A stretch of 39,299 bases of DNA. Source: Deinococci bacterium (GTDB taxonomy: Bacteria > Deinococcota > Deinococci > Deinococcales > Trueperaceae). The number at the start of each line of letters is the position of its first letter. Within the stretch, counting starts at the first letter, position 1. The notes under the pieces were generated by a model. The model was not told the origin of the DNA and did not search any database. It saw only the letters and a program-made list of their open reading frames with translations. Both the position numbers and the translations under genes were made by a program. The DNA lies in NCBI GenBank assembly GCA_030149325.1, contig JASBRS010000072.1, positions 1 through 39,299 on the forward strand, written 5' to 3'. Positions 29,386-39,155 of this stretch are shown one piece after another.

Positions 29386-30828
29386 TCAGCTCCCGACGTC
29401 GAAGCGGACGCTCCGGCCGTCCACCCGGAAGTGTCGGGGGCCCAGCCGCTTCACCTCCGGCGTCGCCTCCAGCCAGGCGCGCAGCGCCTCGACCTCGTGG
29501 GCATCGAGCCACGCCGGCGGGTCGGAGCAGCCGCGGAACCCCGCCACGCTCCCCAGGTCCTGGAGGAGCCGGCGCTGCTCCGGGCTCAGCAGGTCGTAGC
29601 GGCGCCGGAAGAACGCCACGTCCGGGTCGACGTCGACCAGCCCGCGCAGCCACAGCCGCTCGACGCTGGTGGCGACGGCGTTGCGGGCCGCGGGGCCGGT
29701 GGGATCGTGCAGGTAGCGTCGGCGGTCCTCGTTGTCCCAGTACGGCGCCGTGTCCGGACCGACGCGGAGGCCGTCGACGAGGCCGAGCGAGGGGAGGATG
29801 GGCGCGCCGCACGCCAGCAGGTAGGTGGCCTCGCCGCAGATCGCGCGCACCTTCGCCAGCGCGTCGCGGTAGGCGTCCTCCCGTGCGATGCCGCGGTGCC
29901 GTACGCCCGGCAGTGCCGCCGCGTAGAGGAAGTCGAGCTTGAGCAGCTCGTAGCCCCACGCCCGCACGCGGCGGAACGTCGTCTCCAGCCAGGCCGCCAC
30001 CTCGGGGTGCGTGGTGTCGAGCGCGTAGAAGGTCCCGCCCCAGTTGTCGCCCGCCGGCACTGCCCGGCCCTCGGCGTCGTGCAGCAGCCAGTCGGGGTGA
30101 TCGCGCGCCAGGCGGCTCCCGGGCGTGGCGATGAAGGGCGCCAGCCACAGCCCGGGCGTGAAGCCGGCCGCCCGGATGGCGTCGGCCATGGCGGCCATCC
30201 CCGAGGGGAAGGCGTCGTTGGCCTCCCAGTCGCCGATGGCGCGCTGCCAGCCGTCGTCGATCTGGAAGGCGTCGAAGGGGAGGCCGGCGAGCCCCGCCAG
30301 CACCTCACGCAGCCCGGCCTCGCTGACGTCGCGGTAGAAGCCATACCAGCTCGACCACAGCCGCGGCGCCGGGCGCTCGCCCCGGCGCCCCAGGCGCTCG
30401 CCGAGCGCGTCGGCGTAGGCCTCGAACACCCGCTCCTGCGGGCCGAAGGCGAGGAACCACGGGCCCGGCTCGCCGCTCTCGAAGGCGCCCTCGAGGCCGT
30501 CGCCGGTGCACTCCACGCGCGCTCCGGGCGCGAGCGCCCCGAGCAGCAGCACGCCCTCGTCGGTCGCCAGGGCGCCCACGCCGCTGCCGCCGGGACGGGC
30601 GGCCAGGGCGTAGCGGGGGTCGTCGGCCTGCGGTCGCCGCTGCGGCGGCTCGATCGCTTCGGGCCGCTCGCCGGGCCCCAACCAGCGCACCTCGCTCCAG
30701 CTCTGCCAGCCGTGGCGGTAGAAGCGTCCCGCGCCCGCGCCGGCGAGGGCGACGTCCGCCGCCCGGACCCGGAAGCCCCCCTCGACGGCCTCGGCGCCGG
30801 CGGGGAGCTCGCAGCGGCCCAGCCTCAC
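29386..30828 (-). CDS. GH36 alpha-galactosidase
   Basis: The 480-residue enzyme hydrolyses terminal alpha-galactosides such as melibiose or raffinose. It has the family pattern: [13 protein letters not shown] in the N-terminal beta domain, [20 protein letters not shown] at the barrel start, [31 protein letters not shown] (catalytic nucleophile Asp), and [12 protein letters not shown] (acid/base Asp region). It is on the short side for GH36, with reduced N- and C-terminal domains. No signal peptide is present, so it acts in the cytoplasm after uptake. The GTG at 30828 overlaps the GH42 stop as GTGA, so it is translated by coupling. The same frame stays open antisense-like upstream through the GH42 gene, which is chance. 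Confidence 0.88.
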
Positions 30829-32777
30829 CGAGATGCGTCCCAGATGGCGAGCCCGTAGGGGGGCAGGTCGGCTCCGCCCAGCACGGCGCGGGCACCGGCC
30901 GGCGGCTCGAGCCGCCGCGGCTCGGGGCCGTGGTTGAAGGCGAACGTCCAGGGGCCGCGCCGGCGCAGCCGCACGTCCGGGGGCAGCGCCCGCACCTCGA
31001 GTCCCGCCACCTCGGCGATGTGCGCCAGGAACCGGCCCAGGAAGGCGGGTCCCGGCCAGAAGGCCAGGTAGCGGACCTCGCGGTGGCGCCACACCGCTCC
31101 CCCGCCGTCGTCGAAGCGGCCCTTGGCCGCGGCGCCGCCGTCGCCGACGGGCTCGAGCCACTCGCGCCAGGTGCCCGCCGCGAAGCGCTCGCCCTCCCAG
31201 GTGAAGGCGTCCTCGAGGCCGGGGCGCAGGCTCTCGACCCGCGTCACCCGCACCGGCATGAGCTCCTGCAGACGGCCCGGCGGAAGCTCCGGCGGGATGC
31301 CGAAGGAGGCGGTCTTGCTGCCCGAGCGCGGGCCCAGCACCAGCGGACCGGGGAAGGCGCGCAGCGCCGCCAGCGCCGCGTCGGACACCGTCGGCAGGCT
31401 CGGCACCACCACCGCGGCGTAGCCGGTCAGGTCGGCGCCCGCCGGCACCACGTCGACGTCCAGCCCCAGCGCGCGCAGGGTGCTGTAGAAGGCGAACTCC
31501 AGCGCCGCGACGCTCCACTCCGCGCCCTGGGGCTGGATGGCGCCGATCCAGGCGGCCTCGACGTCGTGCACCAGGGCGATGCGGGCGGGCGTCGCGGCCG
31601 GCAGCTCGAGCCCCGCCAGCTCGCGCGCCACCGCGCGCGCCTCGTCGGCCCCCACGTCGTCGCTGGCGTCGGGGCGCAGCAGGCCGGCGTGCATCTGCTC
31701 CTGCGCGAAGGGCGCCTGCCGCCAGCGGAAGTACGACACCACCTCGGCACCGTGCGCCAGCGCCTCCCAGGTCCACAGCCGCACCACGCCGGGCGCCGGC
31801 GAGGGGTTGTGGGGCGCCCAGTTCACGGGGCCCGGCTGCTGCTCCATCACCCAGAAGCGCCCGCGCCCGACCCCCCGGTAGAGGTCGTGGTGGAACGCCG
31901 CCACGTCGGGGTGGCCGGAGCGCGCGTAGCGCGCCTTGGTGGCGTCGTCGAGGGGCATCAGGTCGGTGAAGCCCAGGGGGTAGCTGTCCCAACTGGCCAG
32001 GTCGAGGTCGGCGGCGACGCCGTAGGGATCGAACTGGTCGAAGAAGCCCATGAAGTTGTGCACCACGAACCGCCCCGGCGACAGCACGCGGAGGATGTCG
32101 ACCTGCGCGCGGTTGAAGGCCGCCACCTGATCCGAGGAGAAGCGGTAGAAGTCGAGCACGCGCGCCGGGTTGGGCTCGGTGACCGTGAGGTTCGGGAGAT
32201 CGACCTCGTCGAACGAGCGCACCTCCATGCTCCAGAACACCGCGCCCCACGCCTCGTTGAGCGCCGCCACGGTGCCGTAGCGCCGCTCCAGCCAGGCGCG
32301 GAAGGCGCGCGCGTCCTCGGGGCCGTAGCTGCGGACGGTGTCGTGGCAGCCGTACTCGTTGTCGGTCTGCCAGCCCGCCAGCGCCGGGTGCCGGCCGAAG
32401 CGCTCGGCCAGGGCCGTCACGATGCGGCGGCTCTCCTCGAGGTAGCGGCGGCTGCTGAAGCTGTAGTGCCGGCGCGAGCCGAAGGTGCGCACGCGCCCGG
32501 CCTCGTCCACCGCCAGGACGTCGGGGTAGCGGTCCACCAGCCACTTGGGCGGGGTGGCGGTGGGGGTGCCGAGGACGACGCGCAGGTCCTCGGCGGCGAG
32601 GGTGTCGAGGGCGCGCCCCAGCCAGTCGAGGTCGAGCCTTCCCGGTTCGGGCTCGAGCCGGCTCCAGGCGAACTCGCCGATGCGGACGTAGCGCAGCCCG
32701 AGCTCGCGCATCCGCCGCGCGTCCTCGCGCCAGCGCGCCTCGGGCCAGTGTTCAGGGTAGTAACAGACGCCGAGCAT
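30825..32777 (-). CDS. GH42 beta-galactosidase
   Basis: The 650-residue enzyme hydrolyses beta-galactosides in the cytoplasm. The GH42 barrel is clear: [19 protein letters not shown] at the start, [26 protein letters not shown] with the acid/base Glu after Asn, WDSYPLG, and [16 protein letters not shown] with the nucleophile Glu. A trimerisation domain (about 380-590) and a small beta C-terminus follow. The ATG at 32777 lies a few bases after the permease stop (32784). The length is usual for the family. Its neighbours make it a partner of the alpha-galactosidase for mixed galacto-oligosaccharides or plant galactans. Confidence 0.94.
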
Positions 32778-32783
32778 ACGACC

Positions 32784-33629
32784 TCACTTGACGCTGCCGG
32801 CGGTGAGGCCGGCCTGCCAGTAGCGTTGGAGTGTGAAGAACGCGACGATCAGCGGCAGCACCGAGACCAGCGCGCCGACCAGGATGGCCGGGTAATCGAC
32901 CGAGGCCCCGGTCTGGGCGGTGGAGTTCCAGATGGCCAGCCCCACCGTCACGGGGTAGAGCGAGCCCTTGGAGAGCACCACCAGGGGCAGGAAGAAGTTG
33001 TTCCAGGTGCTCACGAAGCTGAACAGCCCGACCGTCACCAGGCCGTTGCGGACCAGCGGCAGGCCCACCTGCCAGAACACCCGCCACTCGCTGGCGCCGT
33101 CGAGGTAGGCGGCGTCCTGCAGCGCCTTGGGGAAGCCCTGGTCCCAGAAGATGAGCATCAGGTAGACGCCCAGCGGGTTCACCAGCAGCGGCAGCACCAC
33201 CGCCCAGTAGGTGTTGATGAGGCCCAGGTCGTGGAGGATCAGGAAGATCGGCAGCACCAGCGCCGTGATCGGCACCAGCACGCTGGCCAGGATCATCAGG
33301 TTGAGGACGGTCTTGAACGGGAACTCGAACTTGGAGAAGGCGTAGCCGGCCATGGCCGAGAACAGCGTCGAGGCCAGGGCCACGCCGCCCGAGTACAGCG
33401 CGGTGTTGAGCATCCAGCGGCCCATCACGCCGTCCTGGAAGGCGAGCATGCCGCGGATGTTGTCGAGCAGGTGCCACGGGCTCGCGAACCCGAGCCCGAA
33501 GCTGGTGAAGAGCTGGCCCGTGCTCTTGGTGGCGGAGATCACCAGCCAGAAGAAGGGCAGCAGGAAGTACAGCGCCAGGATCAGCACCAGCACGCGCCAA
33601 CTGACGGCGGCGATGCCGCCGCGCCTCAC
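32784..33629 (-). CDS. ABC sugar transporter permease (MalG-type)
   Basis: The 281-residue inner membrane protein has six membrane helices; the first begins at WRVLVLILALYFLLPFFWLV. The EAA loop that contacts the ATPase is present as AAYLDGASEWRVFWQVGLPL. It is one half of a CUT1-type oligosaccharide importer. The GTG at 33629 overlaps the stop of the MalF-type permease as GTGA, giving a coupled pair, and residues before it in the longer open frame belong to the upstream gene. No ATPase is encoded in this operon, so an MsmX-like shared subunit is likely. Confidence 0.93.
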   Translation of the reverse strand: MRRGGIAAVSWRVLVLILALYFLLPFFWLVISATKSTGQLFTSFGLGFASPWHLLDNIRGMLAFQDGVMGRWMLNTALYSGGVALASTLFSAMAGYAFSKFEFPFKTVLNLMILASVLVPITALVLPIFLILHDLGLINTYWAVVLPLLVNPLGVYLMLIFWDQGFPKALQDAAYLDGASEWRVFWQVGLPLVRNGLVTVGLFSFVSTWNNFFLPLVVLSKGSLYPVTVGLAIWNSTAQTGASVDYPAILVGALVSVLPLIVAFFTLQRYWQAGLTAGSVK

Positions 33630-34492
33630 AGCCGGCTCCTCTGGCGGTTCAGCAGCGCCAGCATGCCGATGGACAGCACGAAGGTGATGACGGCCAGCAC
33701 CACCGCGAGGGCGGCGGCGTAGTTGAAGTTGCCGTAGTTGAAGGCCGTGAAGTAGATGTAGAGGTTGGGCATGAGGTTGGTCGGGACGAAGGCGAGCGAG
33801 CGCAGCACGAACGGCTCGGCGAAGATCTGCAGCGTCCCGATGATCGAGAACAGCGCCGCCAGCGCCAGCGCCGGCGCCACCATCGGCAGCTTGATGAAGC
33901 GCACCACCTGGGCGTTGCTGGCCCCGTCGATGCGGGCGGCCTCGTAGAGCTCGGCCGGTACGCCCCGCAGGGCCGAGTACAGGATGACCATGTTGTAGCC
34001 CGTCCAGGTCCAGGTGATGATGTTGCCGAGCGACCACAGCAGCCCGCGCGCCCCGAGGAAGTCGATCTTGAGCCCGAGCGGCGCCAGCGCCTGGTTGAAC
34101 GGCGACAGCCCCTTCGAGTACAGGTAGCCCCACAGCAGCCCGCCGATGACGGTGGGCATGGCGTAGGGGAGGAAGAAGCTGAGGCTGAAGAAGGTCCGCC
34201 AGCGGGCGTTGCGCAGCCCGTCGAGGTAGAGCGCCAGGGCCAGCGCGATCAGCAGCATGATGGGGATCTGGATGATCCCGAAGCGTGCGATGGTCCCGAG
34301 CGAGGACAGGAACTGATCGTCGTGGAGCACGCGCGCGTAGTTGGCGAGGCCGGTGAAGATCTTGGGTCGGATGCCGCGCTGGACGAACAGGCTCAGGTAG
34401 ACGGCGTACCCGATCGAGACCAGATAGAAGAGCAAGAACAGCGACAGGAACGGCGCCAGGAAGAGATACGGTACGAACCACCTACGTCGCAT
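33626..34492 (-). CDS. ABC sugar transporter permease (MalF-type)
   Basis: The 288-residue protein has six membrane helices and begins RRRWFVPYLFLAPFLSLFLLF, the usual opening of CUT1 permeases. The EAA loop is AARIDGASNAQVVRFIKLPM. It lacks the extra periplasmic domain of enteric MalF. Together with the MalG-type permease it forms the membrane channel of a galactoside importer fed by the binding protein encoded upstream. The ATG is at 34492; the 72-base gap to the binding protein gene holds a strong hairpin that probably raises binding-protein mRNA levels over the permeases. Confidence 0.93.
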   Translation of the reverse strand: MRRRWFVPYLFLAPFLSLFLLFYLVSIGYAVYLSLFVQRGIRPKIFTGLANYARVLHDDQFLSSLGTIARFGIIQIPIMLLIALALALYLDGLRNARWRTFFSLSFFLPYAMPTVIGGLLWGYLYSKGLSPFNQALAPLGLKIDFLGARGLLWSLGNIITWTWTGYNMVILYSALRGVPAELYEAARIDGASNAQVVRFIKLPMVAPALALAALFSIIGTLQIFAEPFVLRSLAFVPTNLMPNLYIYFTAFNYGNFNYAAALAVVLAVITFVLSIGMLALLNRQRSRL

Positions 34493-34505
34493 CGTGCACC
34501 CATCC

Positions 34506-34537
34506 GGCGGAGCGGGGCCGTCGGGCCCCGCTCCGCC
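34506..34537 (-). promoter_or_regulatory. Intercistronic hairpin after the binding-protein gene
   Basis: A perfect 14-bp stem, GGCGGAGCGGGGCC with a four-base loop, lies between the binding-protein gene and the permease genes. There is no T run, so it probably stabilises the upstream mRNA or slows transcription rather than ending it; such hairpins commonly give more binding protein than permease. Confidence 0.6.
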
Positions 34538-34564
34538 TCCTTCGGACCTGGTTCCGAGCCTACG

Positions 34565-35878
34565 TCACTGCCCGGAGACCTGGTACCCCTGACCCTTGGC
34601 GTAGTTCAGCACGTCCTGCTGCCAGGCGTCCAGCGCGGCGCTCCAGGTGGTCTTCCCGGCGACCGCGTCGGCGATGTACTTGTTGAAGTTGTCGTTGGCG
34701 TAGAGGAACCACGGCGCCCACTGGAAGTCGGTGGGCACCCCGGCCGACGCCTCGGCGTAGACCTGGGCGACGTCCTGACCGCCGAAGAACTTGCTGGGGT
34801 TCTTGCTGGTGTCGTGCAGCGCGGGCATGGTGAGGCCGGCCTTGGCGGCCGGGAACAGCCCGCCGTTCTCCCAGTTCAGCGCCAGCGCCGTCGGGCTGGT
34901 GTTGAGCCACAGGGAGAAGATGGTGGCGGCCTCGGCGTGCTTGCTCTGGGACGTGACGACGTCGGACGAGCCGCCCCAGTTGCCGCTCGCGAAGGTCCCG
35001 CCGGTGCCCCACTGCGGCAGCGGCGCGGCGCGCCAGGTGCCGGCGCTCTCGGCGCCGAGGCGGCTCGCCAGGCTGCCGGGGCCCCAGGCGGCCTCGATCA
35101 AGGTGGTGATCTGCCCCTTGGCGAGGGCGCTGTTCAGCTCGCTGGTGAAGTCGGGGAGGGTGGCGGCGTACTTCTTGTCCACCAGGTTGCCCCAGAAGTC
35201 GATGACCTTCTTGGCCGAGGCGCTGTTGAGCGACTGCGTCCAGCCGTTGCCGGAGTGCGTCCACAGCTTGCCGCCGTCGGCCCACACCAGGCCCATGAAC
35301 CAGGGCGCGAAGGTCGAGTAGAAGTCGGTGTACTGGACGCTACCGTTCGTCGCCTGCGCGAGCTTCTGGGCGTTGGCTTCGAACTCGGCCCAGGTCTTCG
35401 GCACGCTCAGGCCGTACTTCTTGTAGAGGTCCTCGCGGTAGACCAGCGCGAAGGGGCCGGTGTCCTGCGGGATGGCGTAGACGGCCTTGCCGTCGGGCGA
35501 GACCTGCCCCCACGTCCACGGCACGAACGCCGACTCGTACGGAGCGGCGTACTTCGAGATGTCGGCCAGCCCCCCGAAGTCGATGAAGTTGGGCAGGAAG
35601 TCGTATTCGATCTGGGCGACGTCCGGCGCGCCCGTTCCCGCCTTGAGGGCCGTCAGCAGCTTGGTGTACTCGTTGGGGCCCGAGCCGACGTTGCTGACGT
35701 CGACCTTGATGTTGGGGTAGGCCTGCTCGAAGGCGGCCACCGCCTTGTCGAGACCGGGGACCCACGACCACACGGTGATGGTGACGGCCGGACCGTTGTA
35801 CGCGGGGAGGGCCGGAACCGTTTGCGAAAACGCCACCGACGCGACGACGGCTGCCAGGATGAGCCAGAGCTTCCTCAT
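34565..35878 (-). CDS. ABC transporter sugar-binding protein
   Basis: The 437-residue protein is a family 1 extracellular solute-binding protein. It has a signal peptide ([19 protein letters not shown]) without a lipobox Cys, so it should be released to the periplasm, which suits a cell with an outer membrane. The mature part shows [66 protein letters not shown] and [15 protein letters not shown], all typical of oligosaccharide binders. The ATG at 35878 follows AAAGGAGCGAT; an upstream 50-codon extension of the frame has no family-like sequence. The 97 bases before it, after the regulator gene, hold a likely operator. Confidence 0.93.
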
Positions 35879-35917
35879 ATCGCTCCTTTCGAGTGCTGGT
35901 TCAAGGCTACTCGCAGT

Positions 35918-35938
35918 TACGCTATCTTGTAAAGTCTT
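35918..35938 (-). promoter_or_regulatory. Candidate promoter and DeoR-type site of the galactoside operon
   Basis: On the minus strand AAGACTTTACA carries a -35-like TTTACA, with TAGCCT 18 bases downstream as a weak -10. The core AAGACTTT (35931-35938) recurs next to the regulator's own start at 36777-36784, so both may be bound by it. Confidence 0.4.
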
Positions 35939-35975
35939 TTGAATCGAGAGGCGGTGCGATCGGGCCGGGTCGGCC

Positions 35976-36770
35976 TCAGCCTCGACCGTCGGCCACCAGA
36001 ACGCGCAAGCCGGCCTCGCCGAGCGCACGCACGGCCTCCGGGTCGGCGCGGTCGTCGGTCACCAGCACGTGCACCGCGTCGAGGCTCGCGATGCGTGCCG
36101 TGGCCACCGCCAGGAGCTTGCTGTGGTCGGCCAGCACCACGGTCTCGCGTGCCGCGCGGAGCATCTGCGCCTTGATCTCCGCCTCCTGCAGGTTGGTGTT
36201 GGTGAGCCCCTTGGCCGGATCGACGCCGTTGCAGCCGACGAACGCCCGGTCGGCGTTGATCTCCTGGAGCAGGAGCCCCCCGAAGGGGTTGACCAGCGAG
36301 TGCTGCAAAGGCCGCAACGATCCCCCCGTCACCACCACCGAGACCCCGGGGTGCGACTCCAGGAGCAGCGCGAGGTTCAGTGCGTTGGTCACGACCACCA
36401 CGTCGCGCAGCGTCGGCGCCAGGGCCTTGGCCATCTCGGTGGTGGTGCTGCCGACGTCGAGGATGACCGTCTCCCCGCTGCGAACGAGGCCCGCCGCCCG
36501 GCGCCCGATCTTGCGCTTCTCCGAGATCCTCACCCGGCTCGTCTCCTCGAGCGGCAGCTCGGGGCTGGCCAAGTCGGTGGGGACCGCGCCCCCGCGGGTG
36601 CGCCGGAGGGCGCCGTTGGCCTCGAGCTGGTCGAGGTCGGAGCGGATCGTCACGGTCGAGACGCCGAGCTCCTTGGCCAGCGCCTTGACGCGCACCACGC
36701 CGGACCGCGACAGCAGGTCGACGATCGCCTTCTGGCGGAGCACGGCGTCGAGGGAGGGCATCGGTTCCAT
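35976..36770 (-). CDS. DeoR-family transcriptional regulator
   Basis: The 264-residue protein begins with the DeoR helix-turn-helix ([24 protein letters not shown], then [13 protein letters not shown] and RTRGGAV). The effector domain has [37 protein letters not shown] and [11 protein letters not shown], the sugar-phosphate-binding pattern of the family. It most likely represses the operon that follows it on the same strand and is released by a sugar phosphate. Two ATGs, 36770 and 36761, are possible; neither has a clear ribosome binding site. A site with the core AAGACTTT just upstream suggests autoregulation. Confidence 0.9.
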
Positions 36771-36776
36771 CTTACG

Positions 36777-36787
36777 AAGACTTTCGG
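36777..36787. promoter_or_regulatory. Candidate DeoR-type site upstream of the regulator gene
   Basis: AAGACTTTCGG begins seven bases before the regulator's first ATG and shares AAGACTTT with the site before the binding-protein gene. The larger CGAAGACTTTCG is partly palindromic. Confidence 0.4.
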
Positions 36788-36870
36788 AATCTTGCCACCA
36801 GGCAGCCGCGCCGCGCTCCGCCCCTGTGGCCCCTGGGGTCCGCGCACCCACCGCACCCCGGCCGGAAATG

Positions 36871-37010
36871 GTGTAGGTTGTGCTCTGCCTCCGTTGAGGA
36901 GGCCCCCCAATCGATGGCCGCGGAGCTTCCGCCCCGCACCATCAACCCGTCCCAGTTCCTGGGACCGGAGCGCGCAGCGGCCCCCCACGCTGCGCGCTCC
37001 ACTTCTTTCT
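36871..37010 (+). ncRNA. Candidate structured small RNA or terminated leader
   Basis: In the 300-base gap between the regulator and the terpene synthase fusion, three hairpins follow one another on the plus strand: GCCTCC-GTTGA-GGAGGC (36887-36903), GTCCCAG-TTC-CTGGGAC (36949-36965, perfect 7 bp) and a 13-bp terminator stem (36967-37000). A further GCGG-AGCTT-CCGC stem lies between the first two, and GGTTGTGC near 36877 can pair with GCACC...CAACC near 36936-36947, closing a multi-branched fold. It matches no RNA family I recognise. It may be a separate small RNA, or a riboswitch-like leader controlling the fusion gene by termination. A clear promoter is not visible. Confidence 0.4.
36967..37010 (+). 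terminator. Intrinsic terminator upstream of the terpene synthase fusion
   Basis: GGAGCGCGCAGCG (36967-36979) pairs perfectly with 36988-37000 across an eight-base loop and is followed by ACTTCTTTCT. It lies 70 bases before the next start codon, so it ends a transcript that begins in the intergenic region. Confidence 0.6.
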
Positions 37011-37070: not shown

Positions 37071-39155
37071 ATGCCCGCGGGAGTCGAACACACCGAGGTG
37101 GCCTGGGACGCCTCGACGGCCTCCGCGGTCGAGGGCATCGGCTCCGAGGCGCCTGCCATCGCGAGGTTGCGGCGGGCGCTCTACCTGGGACTGCTGCCGC
37201 TCCTGGCCGTCGCCACCCTCGTCACCGGCCTCCTCGGCGCCCCCGGCTCCTACGACCGCATGGTGCTGCCGATGGTGAGCGCCGTGATGCTCGTCATCAT
37301 GCTGGCGGTCTACCAGCGCTGGATCTCCTACGCCCACCTCGAGAAGACGCTGTTCGTCCTCTTCACCCTGGTCTACCTCGGCAAGCTCGCGACCGGCCTG
37401 GCCCCGGGCCCGACCCTCGACCAGGTCTTCGTGTGGACGCCCCTGCTCTACGTGCTGGCCTTCCTGCTGTTCGAGCCGCGCCAGGCCCTTGCCGCCTCGG
37501 TGGTGGCCCTGGGCCTGTCGATCGGCATCACCGCGGTCCGCATCGGGGGGTCGGGCGTGCCGGTCCGCAGCATGTTCGAGTTCTACCTGGCCATCAGCCT
37601 GCTGATCGCCATGGTCTACGGGTTGTCGCGCCTGCGCCGCGACGTCGCTGCCCTGCAGACCCAACTCGTAGGCATGCGACGGCTGGCGAACCAGGACGTG
37701 CTCACGGTGCTGCCCAACCGCCGGGCGCTGGAGTCGGCGCTCGAGCGCATCCTCGCGCTCGGGGAGCGCACCGGCCAGCCCGCCGCGGTCATCCTCTTCG
37801 ACCTCGACGACTTCAAGCGCGTCAACGACGTCTTCGGCCACGACGCCGGCGACGAGGTGCTCAAGGGGGTGGCCGAGCGCGGCGAGGAGGTGCTTCGGCG
37901 CCCCGACACCTTCGGGCGCTGGGGCGGCGAGGAGTTCCTCGTCATCACGCCGGGCATCGACCTGCCGGGCGCCATGCGGGTGGCCGAGCGCATGCGCACG
38001 GCCATCGGCGGCGCCTCGTTCGGCCGCATGGGGCGCGTCACGGCCAGCTTCGGGGTCACCGCGTTCCGCCCCGGCGACACCGTCGAGGCCATGGTCAAGC
38101 GCGCCGACGACGCCCTCTACCTCGCCAAGCAAGCAGGCAAGGACCGCGTCGAGGCGTTGGTGCGGGAGATCGTGCAGCACGTCACCCTGCCCAGCCTGCT
38201 GCGCCCCTACCTGCCGCCGGTGCGGAGCGTGGAGACGGTGCAGCGCGGCACGCTCGAGTGGCTCAAGGACCACCGCGTGGCCCCACCCGAGACGCTCTAC
38301 CGCTGGGTCGACGCGGTCGAGCCCGGCTGGCTCGCCGCCCACATCCACATCGACCTGGAGCCCCAGGCCCTGCAGATCGTCTCCGACTGGGCGTTCTGGA
38401 TGTTCCTCCACGACGACCACTGCGACACCAGCGAGGCCGGCAGCCACCCCCGCTACCTGATCGACCTGCATCAGCGCCTGCTGTCGGTGCTGGCCGGCGC
38501 CGCGCCGGACGCGCGCGACGGCGCCCTGGCGGAGCTGCTGGCCGATCTGCGCCGGCGTCTCTCGATCTACGTCGACGACGCCGGGCTGCAGCGCTTCATG
38601 GAGGCCACCGACCGCTACTTCGCGGCCACCCGCTGGGAGGCGGCCAACCGCGCCAGCGGTACCACGCCCGACCTCGAGACCTACGAGCGCATGCGGCTGC
38701 TCACCAGCGGGCTGCACATCGACACGGTGCTGTCGCAACTGCTCGACGGCGTCCCGCGCTGCGGCATCCCCCTGGCCCAGAGCCTCTACGCCGCGGCCGA
38801 CCGCGCCGTGTGCTGGGCCAACGACATCTTCTCGCTCAACAAGGAGGTGCAGGAGCAGGACGTCCACAACCTCGTCCTCGCCCTCCAGGCCGCCGATCGG
38901 CTGGGGCTCGATGCCGCCCTCGCCAAGGCCGCCCGCATGCACGACGATCAGGTCGAGCGCTTCCGCGCCCTGCGCGCCACGATCGAGTCCCACGAGGGGA
39001 CCGAACGCGCGTCCCTGGAAGCGATCGCCGCGGCCCTCGAGGCGCGCATCGCCGCCAACGTGGCGTGGTCGGAGCGCTGCAGCCGCTACCGCTCGATGGT
39101 GACGGTGCACGTCGGCAGCGCGCCGCAGCGCGTGACGGTGGCCCAGCCCACCTGA
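37071..39155 (+). CDS. Membrane GGDEF diguanylate cyclase fused to class I terpene synthase
   Basis: One unbroken frame of 694 residues joins three modules. Residues 36-184 hold six membrane helices. Residues about 200-365 are a GGDEF domain: VLTVLPNRRALE, FDLDDFK (Asp244 onward), the I-site RRPD (276-279) and GGEEF at 285-289, so GTP cyclisation to c-di-GMP and product inhibition both look intact. Residues about 371-694 are a complete bacterial class I terpene cyclase: DDHCD (448-452, the DDxxD Mg site after FLH), a sensor-type Arg in YERMRLLTSG (538-547), NDIFSLNKE (584-592, the NDxxSxxxE triad) and a C-terminal RY (672-673). It could cyclise a prenyl diphosphate at the membrane. The ATG at 37071 has a leaderless -10; ATG 37020 is an alternative. 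No prenyl synthase is adjacent. Confidence 0.93.
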   Translation: MPAGVEHTEVAWDASTASAVEGIGSEAPAIARLRRALYLGLLPLLAVATLVTGLLGAPGSYDRMVLPMVSAVMLVIMLAVYQRWISYAHLEKTLFVLFTLVYLGKLATGLAPGPTLDQVFVWTPLLYVLAFLLFEPRQALAASVVALGLSIGITAVRIGGSGVPVRSMFEFYLAISLLIAMVYGLSRLRRDVAALQTQLVGMRRLANQDVLTVLPNRRALESALERILALGERTGQPAAVILFDLDDFKRVNDVFGHDAGDEVLKGVAERGEEVLRRPDTFGRWGGEEFLVITPGIDLPGAMRVAERMRTAIGGASFGRMGRVTASFGVTAFRPGDTVEAMVKRADDALYLAKQAGKDRVEALVREIVQHVTLPSLLRPYLPPVRSVETVQRGTLEWLKDHRVAPPETLYRWVDAVEPGWLAAHIHIDLEPQALQIVSDWAFWMFLHDDHCDTSEAGSHPRYLIDLHQRLLSVLAGAAPDARDGALAELLADLRRRLSIYVDDAGLQRFMEATDRYFAATRWEAANRASGTTPDLETYERMRLLTSGLHIDTVLSQLLDGVPRCGIPLAQSLYAAADRAVCWANDIFSLNKEVQEQDVHNLVLALQAADRLGLDAALAKAARMHDDQVERFRALRATIESHEGTERASLEAIAAALEARIAANVAWSERCSRYRSMVTVHVGSAPQRVTVAQPT

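Follow-up and report, generated by a model that had tools for sequence, protein, structure and literature searches.

Introduction

Each half of the protein described here is an ordinary member of a known family, and the pairing of the two is what is new. The first half resembles the MASE-GGDEF membrane diguanylate cyclases (DGCs), which act as dimers. Such enzymes are numerous and, as exemplified by a paralogue in the same genome (G000:C49), display the same six helices, GGDEF domain, GGEEF motif, and I-site, with 35-39% identity over residues 25-360 of the fused protein. They terminate 1-30 residues past the GGDEF domain, whereas the protein under study continues into an entire terpene synthase (TS). 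The second half can be compared with (+)-T-muurolol synthase from Roseiflexus castenholzii (9hqd, 9hqm) and with 10-epi-cubebol synthase (7zrn), which share 36% and 29% identity with it, respectively, over the TS domain, as well as the same fold and catalytic motifs. Both of these enzymes stand alone, whereas the TS considered here is tethered to a membrane DGC. It further differs from them by a shorter loop after the diphosphate-sensor arginine and by an arginine replacing an invariant tryptophan.

A terpene cyclase is also associated with a nucleotide-second-messenger domain in the family 2B encapsulins, where a cNMP-binding shell accompanies a terpene cyclase cargo and cNMP-dependent regulation was suggested by the authors (PMC8346489). 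In the encapsulin system a cyclic mononucleotide is bound on the protein shell, whereas the fused protein carries a predicted c-di-GMP-making domain on the same chain. No encapsulin shell gene lies in the neighborhood read, which upstream consists of a sugar ABC operon and a regulator gene and downstream ends with the contig 144 nt after the stop codon. The NCBIfam cargo model NF041168 gives 77.7 bits against a cut-off of 1200 bits, which places the TS outside the encapsulin cargo family. No fused or paired system of a c-di-GMP enzyme and a TS is described in the open-access literature searched, consistent with the statement in the original prediction that none was known. Titles and abstracts from the literature that treats both diguanylate cyclases and sesquiterpenes, including that on Streptomyces development, mention no pair of this kind.

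Results

Overall architecture of the fused protein

The window analyzed is a stretch of 39,299 nucleotides, namely contig JASBRS010000072.1 from the draft genome (102 contigs) of a Deinococci bacterium belonging to the Trueperaceae (GCA_030149325.1). Positions 37071-39155 of the forward strand form a single open reading frame of 694 amino acid residues with three parts, MASE6, GGDEF, and a class I TS. The relevant features are as follows.

36967-37000, + strand: hairpin of 13 bp followed by a weak T tail, in the region that separates the fused gene from the divergently oriented regulator gene
37071-39155, + strand: fused gene MASE6-GGDEF-class I TS (open frame, Pfam, GC3 and codon use)
37164-37619, + strand: MASE6-type membrane sensor region, residues 32-183, six hydrophobic helices (Pfam PF20966, E = 7.3e-7; hydropathy)
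37686-38147, + strand: GGDEF diguanylate cyclase domain, residues 206-359 (Pfam PF00990, E = 1.6e-40)
37896-37907, + strand: I-site RRPD (RxxD), residues 276-279, five residues ahead of GGEEF (motif)
37923-37937, + strand: active-site GGEEF, residues 285-289 (motif)
38181-39089, + strand: TS domain, residues 371-673 (pLDDT; match to T-muurolol synthase 9hqm)
38412-38426, + strand: Asp-rich metal motif DDHCD, residues 448-452 (motif, alignment)
38694-38696, + strand: diphosphate-sensor Arg 542 (aligned to the invariant Arg of the family)
38820-38846, + strand: NSE metal motif NDIFSLNKE, residues 584-592 (motif, alignment)
39084-39089, + strand: RY pair, residues 672-673 (motif, alignment)

The MASE6 region scores 29.8 bits against a Pfam cut-off of 27.4, and the hydropathy profile displays six peaks at residues 37-55, 64-82, 93-111, 116-134, 140-158, and 167-185, such that all six membrane helices precede the GGDEF domain, as is characteristic of MASE6 proteins. 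The closest solved chains to the GGDEF domain are 5llw and PleD (PDB). Residues 244-253 read DLDDFKRVND, with the metal-binding aspartate within DLDDFK (residues 244-249). Along with the GG(D/E)EF site and the RxxD inhibitory site, this aspartate completes the set of residues by which a diguanylate cyclase is recognized, and the GGDEF half appears to be a sequence-intact DGC that would synthesize c-di-GMP from GTP.

The TS half is matched by Pfam Terpene_syn_C_2 at residues 439-630 with an E-value of 4.5e-37, above the cut-off, and contains all four signatures of a class I TS, namely the DDxx(x)D motif, the NSE triad, the sensor arginine, and the RY pair. Arg 542 is positioned 42 residues before the NSE asparagine, a spacing explained by a short loop deletion, yet it aligns with the invariant arginine of the family. 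Among 33 stand-alone TSs, 43 alignment columns are conserved, and the fused TS keeps 36 of these, every catalytic one among them. Taken together, the Pfam and motif support puts both halves far beyond chance. The original prediction of six membrane helices, a GGDEF domain with GGEEF and an I-site, and TS motifs within one frame is thus borne out by Pfam, hydropathy, and the motifs.

A structural model of the fused protein was built on an alignment of the 33 stand-alone TSs. Across residues 371-670 the pLDDT is mostly above 88, and the model displays a complete α-helical class I fold that superimposes on T-muurolol synthase 9hqm with a TM-score of 0.91, normalized by target length. The GGDEF and membrane parts, built without an alignment of their own, are poor and were used only with respect to the helix at residues 338-370. 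This predicted single helix, of low confidence on the GGDEF side, spans from the end of the GGDEF domain to the TS. The possibility of a degenerate TS domain was rejected on the basis of the motifs, the conserved columns, and the fold. The enzyme probably ionizes and cyclizes a prenyl diphosphate, of which farnesyl diphosphate is the best candidate, to yield a sesquiterpene.

At residue 659 (39045-39047) the fused TS has an arginine where tryptophan is invariant across the 33 stand-alone TSs, and this substitution may alter the product or the helix packing. The long branch of the fused TS in phylogenetic trees, the replacement of Trp 659 by arginine, and the loop deletion make an altered product or function conceivable.

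Reading frame and genomic context

GC3 is 0.97 in both halves of the fused gene, and its codon use matches that of the neighboring genes. Upstream, the frame continues without a stop to position 36069, an openness that represents the GC-rich shadow of a gene on the opposite strand, and for this reason a start at the ATG of position 37071 is likely rather than proven. The hairpin at 36967-37000, the 13-bp arms of which pair without a mismatch and the T-rich tail of which is weak, is positioned ∼70 nt ahead of the fused gene and might be a terminator, an attenuator, or an operator; one hairpin of such kind was found versus 0.7 expected. No Rfam match exists upstream of the fused gene, the hairpin included, and a c-di-GMP riboswitch was rejected on these grounds.

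Divergent from the fused gene is a sugar operon (29386-36851, - strand). As read from the translations, it encodes α- and β-galactosidase-like enzymes, ABC permeases, a binding protein, and a DeoR-type regulator, and no terpenoid genes were recognized within it. At the other side, no repeat or IS element occurs at the contig end, and the final 160 nt are unique within the genome. The host genome contains 19 GGDEF matches and two polyprenyl-synthase genes, the products of which would supply the TS substrate.

The junction between the two halves

The features of the junction are given below.

38154-38180, + strand: junction, residues 362-370, where related DGCs end and stand-alone TSs begin; sequence at the joint, GKDRVEALVREIVQHVTLPS
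38160-38174, + strand: possible internal starts, GTG at 38160 (GAGG five bases ahead) and GTG at 38172 (column of the stand-alone TS methionine)

In 14 MASE6-GGDEF relatives and the paralogue from the same genome, the C-terminal tail extends 1-30 residues past the close of the GGDEF domain, with a median of 9. The starting methionines of stand-alone TSs align with residues 366-368 of the fused protein. Since the DGC ends and the TS starts coincide at the junction, two whole proteins have been joined almost without a linker. In the column of residue 368, methionine is present in 91% of the stand-alone TSs, and valine (GTG) in the fused protein. The GTG codons at 38160 and 38172 could be what is left of a former start, or one of them might still serve as an internal start from which free TS is also produced.

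The original prediction would have been overturned by a stop or frameshift between residues 365 and 371. None is present in the given sequence: there are zero stops between 38101 and 38320 in all three forward frames, and the sole stop in the other two forward frames between 37900 and 38500 is at 38458. Homopolymers of at least four bases are absent at the joint, the nearest being CCCC at 38204. A frameshift that merged two genes was therefore rejected, because with no stop in the alternative frames from 37900 to 38457 a single-base error could not have brought them together. In the given sequence, the fusion is real and not the product of a frameshift.

Distribution of the fusion and its halves

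Within the phylum, a TS domain is present in one of 111 genomes, that of the fused gene itself. MASE6-GGDEF proteins are common in the family and the order, and GGDEF matches occur in 60 of 60 relatives. Given this distribution, the TS half was probably acquired, and the cyclase half appears to be native. A second fused copy was found neither among 80 TS relatives (one genome each of 84,980 species) nor in the 111 phylum genomes, 301 genomes of the Methylococcales order, 158 and 400 of the Chloroflexota, 398 of the Pseudomonadota, or the plasmids and viral contigs searched. In the Methylococcales, Chloroflexota, and Pseudomonadota, the matches with frames above ∼600 residues are only tandem TS pairs of 747-804 residues that look like geosmin synthases. 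The earlier statement that class I TSs are normally stand-alone soluble enzymes holds for all 80 of the relatives fetched, none of which is fused to a GGDEF domain. The fusion occurs in one genome only, too few to demonstrate selection for the fused form.

In four actinobacterial loci (L088, L090, L091, and L092), the TS frames are open for 339-532 residues upstream of the match (upstream of 6001). This openness could be a GC-rich shadow or an N-terminal extension.

Terpene synthases paired with GGDEF genes

The gene neighbors of the TS were examined in relatives from the 84,980-species set and in the Methylococcales and Chloroflexota. Pairing was counted for the 114 TSs flanked on either side by 1.5 kb of sequence or more, and those with a blastp score of at least 170 bits to the fused TS were regarded as nearest. 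A GGDEF gene lies on the same strand within 400 nt of 16 of the 17 nearest TSs and within 2 kb of 4 of the remaining 97, counts that are non-independent trials inasmuch as linked TSs within a group are related. On the basis of the 16 pairs, the fusion appears to represent, in one polypeptide, a module that otherwise recurs as two genes; the fused gene itself contains a TS of this subfamily joined to a GGDEF protein of the same strand.

The unfused pairs (L014, L016-L018, L015, L147, L149, L150, L161-L164, and L212-L216) are of the same TS subfamily and have the same strand and short gaps. They differ from the fusion in being two proteins and in that the DGC partner mostly carries an EAL domain and other sensors. 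In the Methylococcales, the GGDEF(-EAL) gene is upstream of the TS with gaps of -4 to 397 nt, and the partner is of the dCache_3-PAS-GGDEF(-EAL) type. In the Chloroflexota, the GGDEF-EAL gene is downstream with gaps of 60-170 nt, and the partner displays PAS-GGDEF-EAL behind a membrane part. In one Methylococcales pair (L101/L214), the stop and start codons overlap by 4 nt. Three methanotroph partners (L018, L162, and L164) lack EAL, and their order of sensor-GGDEF followed by TS would make them the unfused counterpart of the fused protein. In Methylocaldum (L014:1428-6969), the unit comprises genes for a PBP-like binding protein (SBP), a porin-like protein, and a dCache_3-PAS-GGDEF-EAL protein, with the TS last. 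A Chloroflexota MAG (G112) with 11 GGDEF matches has two TS copies, both of which are paired (L015 and L150).

Every Methylococcales TS of the paired clade with enough flank accompanies a dCache-type cyclase; in L160 the distance is 1.9 kb within the same unit. The dCache-type cyclase family is also present in genomes without a TS match. The dependence is thus one-sided: the TS goes with the cyclase, and the cyclase occurs also without the TS.

Other arrangements were observed as well. In L160 (5433-11194, genome G144) the order is TS-SBP-porin-DGC, with the TS first and the other three genes next on the same strand, so that the order is shuffled and the membership kept. In L158 (5110-9211), a distant TS (∼32% identity to the others) follows the same dCache-type GGDEF-EAL gene by 34 nt, as if the TS had been swapped and the signaling partner retained. 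In L159 (4131-6573, Chloroflexota), a distant TS is followed on the same strand by a membrane GGEEF cyclase, the reverse of the order in the fusion. In L152 (4941-7105), the TS and a PAS-GGDEF gene, with SGDEF in place of GGDEF, are convergent with a 4-nt overlap; its genome, G467, holds a second, normally paired TS (L149).

No adjacent GGDEF gene was found for the Nostocales and Chitinophaga TSs, most of which have 6 kb flanks; at two Nostocales loci a GGDEF gene lies ∼4-5 kb from the TS. The Nitrosomonas TS (L023), which falls inside the Methylococcales clade, has no GGDEF neighbor, and many Chloroflexota TSs likewise have none.

Age of the linkage and activity of the paired enzymes

In the eight genomes counted, there are 8-32 GGDEF matches per 3-6.5 Mb, and hence ∼0.4-1.3% of genes would be expected to touch one. 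The linked TSs diverge to 47% identity in the Methylococcales and 35% in the Chloroflexota, which suggests that the linkage is old. Parsimony on the trees requires 5-6 changes of the linked state, and the linked TSs fall into about five groups, namely the fusion, one clade each from the Chloroflexota and the Methylococcales, L159, and L158. The fused TS lies on a very long branch (1.44-2.57) with no supported placement in the tree; the closest sequence by path is the paired L147.

Among four methanotrophs, Methylobacter luteus was reported to be the sole emitter of germacrene, and the study points to a terpene gene cluster, the enzyme being unnamed (PMC11964084). The M. luteus genome examined here (L016/G113), the strain of which may differ from that in the report, has a single TS match, which is paired with a GGDEF-EAL gene. 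Accordingly, the paired TSs are likely, although not proven, to be working sesquiterpene synthases.

Discussion

The reading favored here, with somewhat better than even confidence, is that of a bifunctional, membrane-anchored enzyme that couples its output of c-di-GMP to that of a sesquiterpene and constitutes the single-chain form of a recurring module. It builds on the intact fusion, on the catalytic residues retained in each half, on a joint that falls where the domains meet, and on the recurrent co-linear pairing of the unfused genes. Both halves are presumed to be active on the substrates named above, and the two outputs would influence one another beyond shared expression. A signal received by the MASE6 helices would control the dimerization of the GGDEF domain, and this domain would in turn make c-di-GMP with feedback through the I-site. 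The TS domain, held at the membrane by the short helical joint, would convert a prenyl diphosphate, with farnesyl diphosphate again the best candidate, to a sesquiterpene. In this manner the module would connect c-di-GMP, as the signal deciding between sessile and motile life, with a terpenoid that is volatile or dissolves in membranes. Coupling might proceed through the dimer state, through local c-di-GMP, or simply through co-localization, that is, the placing of a hydrophobic product at the membrane. As the sensors differ by lineage and the GGDEF-TS pairing stays, the link would be between the two outputs rather than with one particular input. A more specific proposal, which we regard as possible and advance only tentatively, is that the c-di-GMP enzyme and the TS are one allosteric unit, fused here and an operon pair elsewhere. 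The local c-di-GMP event that sets surface life would then also switch a volatile sesquiterpene on or off or, alternatively, the state of the TS would feed back on c-di-GMP synthesis.

The strongest rival is co-expression without allostery, in which both activities are called for under a shared condition such as a surface, starvation, or a given envelope state, and the operon or chain secures dosage and timing with no mutual effect. Shared operons alone could explain the pairing: in the relatives the genes are separate but lie -4 to 397 nt apart in what resembles a single transcription unit, the partner sensors differ between lineages, and the dCache-type DGC family occurs also in genomes without a TS. 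A fusion nearly devoid of a linker, however, adds little to co-expression, and the shuffled order with kept membership in L160 and the swapped TS in L158 suggest a tighter need; we consider this explanation rather less probable, albeit a serious one. It is unlikely that the TS domain has turned into a sensor that binds prenyl diphosphate and controls the cyclase by its open-closed movement. The long TS branch, the Trp 659 to Arg replacement, the loop deletion, and the predicted helix connecting the domains would suit such a role, but the metal- and diphosphate-binding residues are all kept, most DGC sensors are N-terminal, a place already filled by MASE6, and the paired stand-alone TSs are separate chains. 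The original prediction had offered both a tie between terpene output and c-di-GMP and a TS domain acting as a prenyl-diphosphate sensor. The functional tie has gained from the finding that unfused TS relatives adjoin GGDEF(-EAL) genes. The mere-sensor variant has become the less likely of the two, given that the catalytic residues are all kept and that the relatives come from a family of active sesquiterpene synthases.

It is also conceivable that a laterally acquired TS came to lie behind a MASE6-GGDEF gene, the separating stop was lost, and the association is passive and without function. The presence of a TS in one of 111 phylum genomes, the restriction of the fusion to one genome, and the occurrence of MASE6-GGDEF relatives throughout the family would all agree with such an event. 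Nevertheless, out of all the sites available in a genome that has 19 GGDEF matches, the TS is attached to a DGC, and its nearest relatives likewise adjoin one. Both halves also retain their catalytic residues and the codon use of the region (GC3 0.97), and a functionless accident is very improbable. An artefact of assembly or sequencing is scarcely credible. The genome is admittedly a draft of 102 contigs, and this contig ends 144 nt after the stop, but GC3 and codon use are uniform, the in-frame joint coincides exactly with the domain boundary, the genome contains no other copy of the 3' end, and with no hidden stop in the other frames near the joint a single indel is excluded as the cause of a merger.

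With the fused gene and the recurring pair in two other phyla, the control of bacterial TSs and the purpose of bacterial sesquiterpenes, both still largely open, become testable in culturable methanotrophs, among them the reported germacrene emitter. If the coupling of the bifunctional enzyme holds true, it would constitute a new class of output for c-di-GMP signaling, and if the allosteric unit holds true, it would directly connect terpenoid synthesis to a nucleotide second messenger at the protein level.
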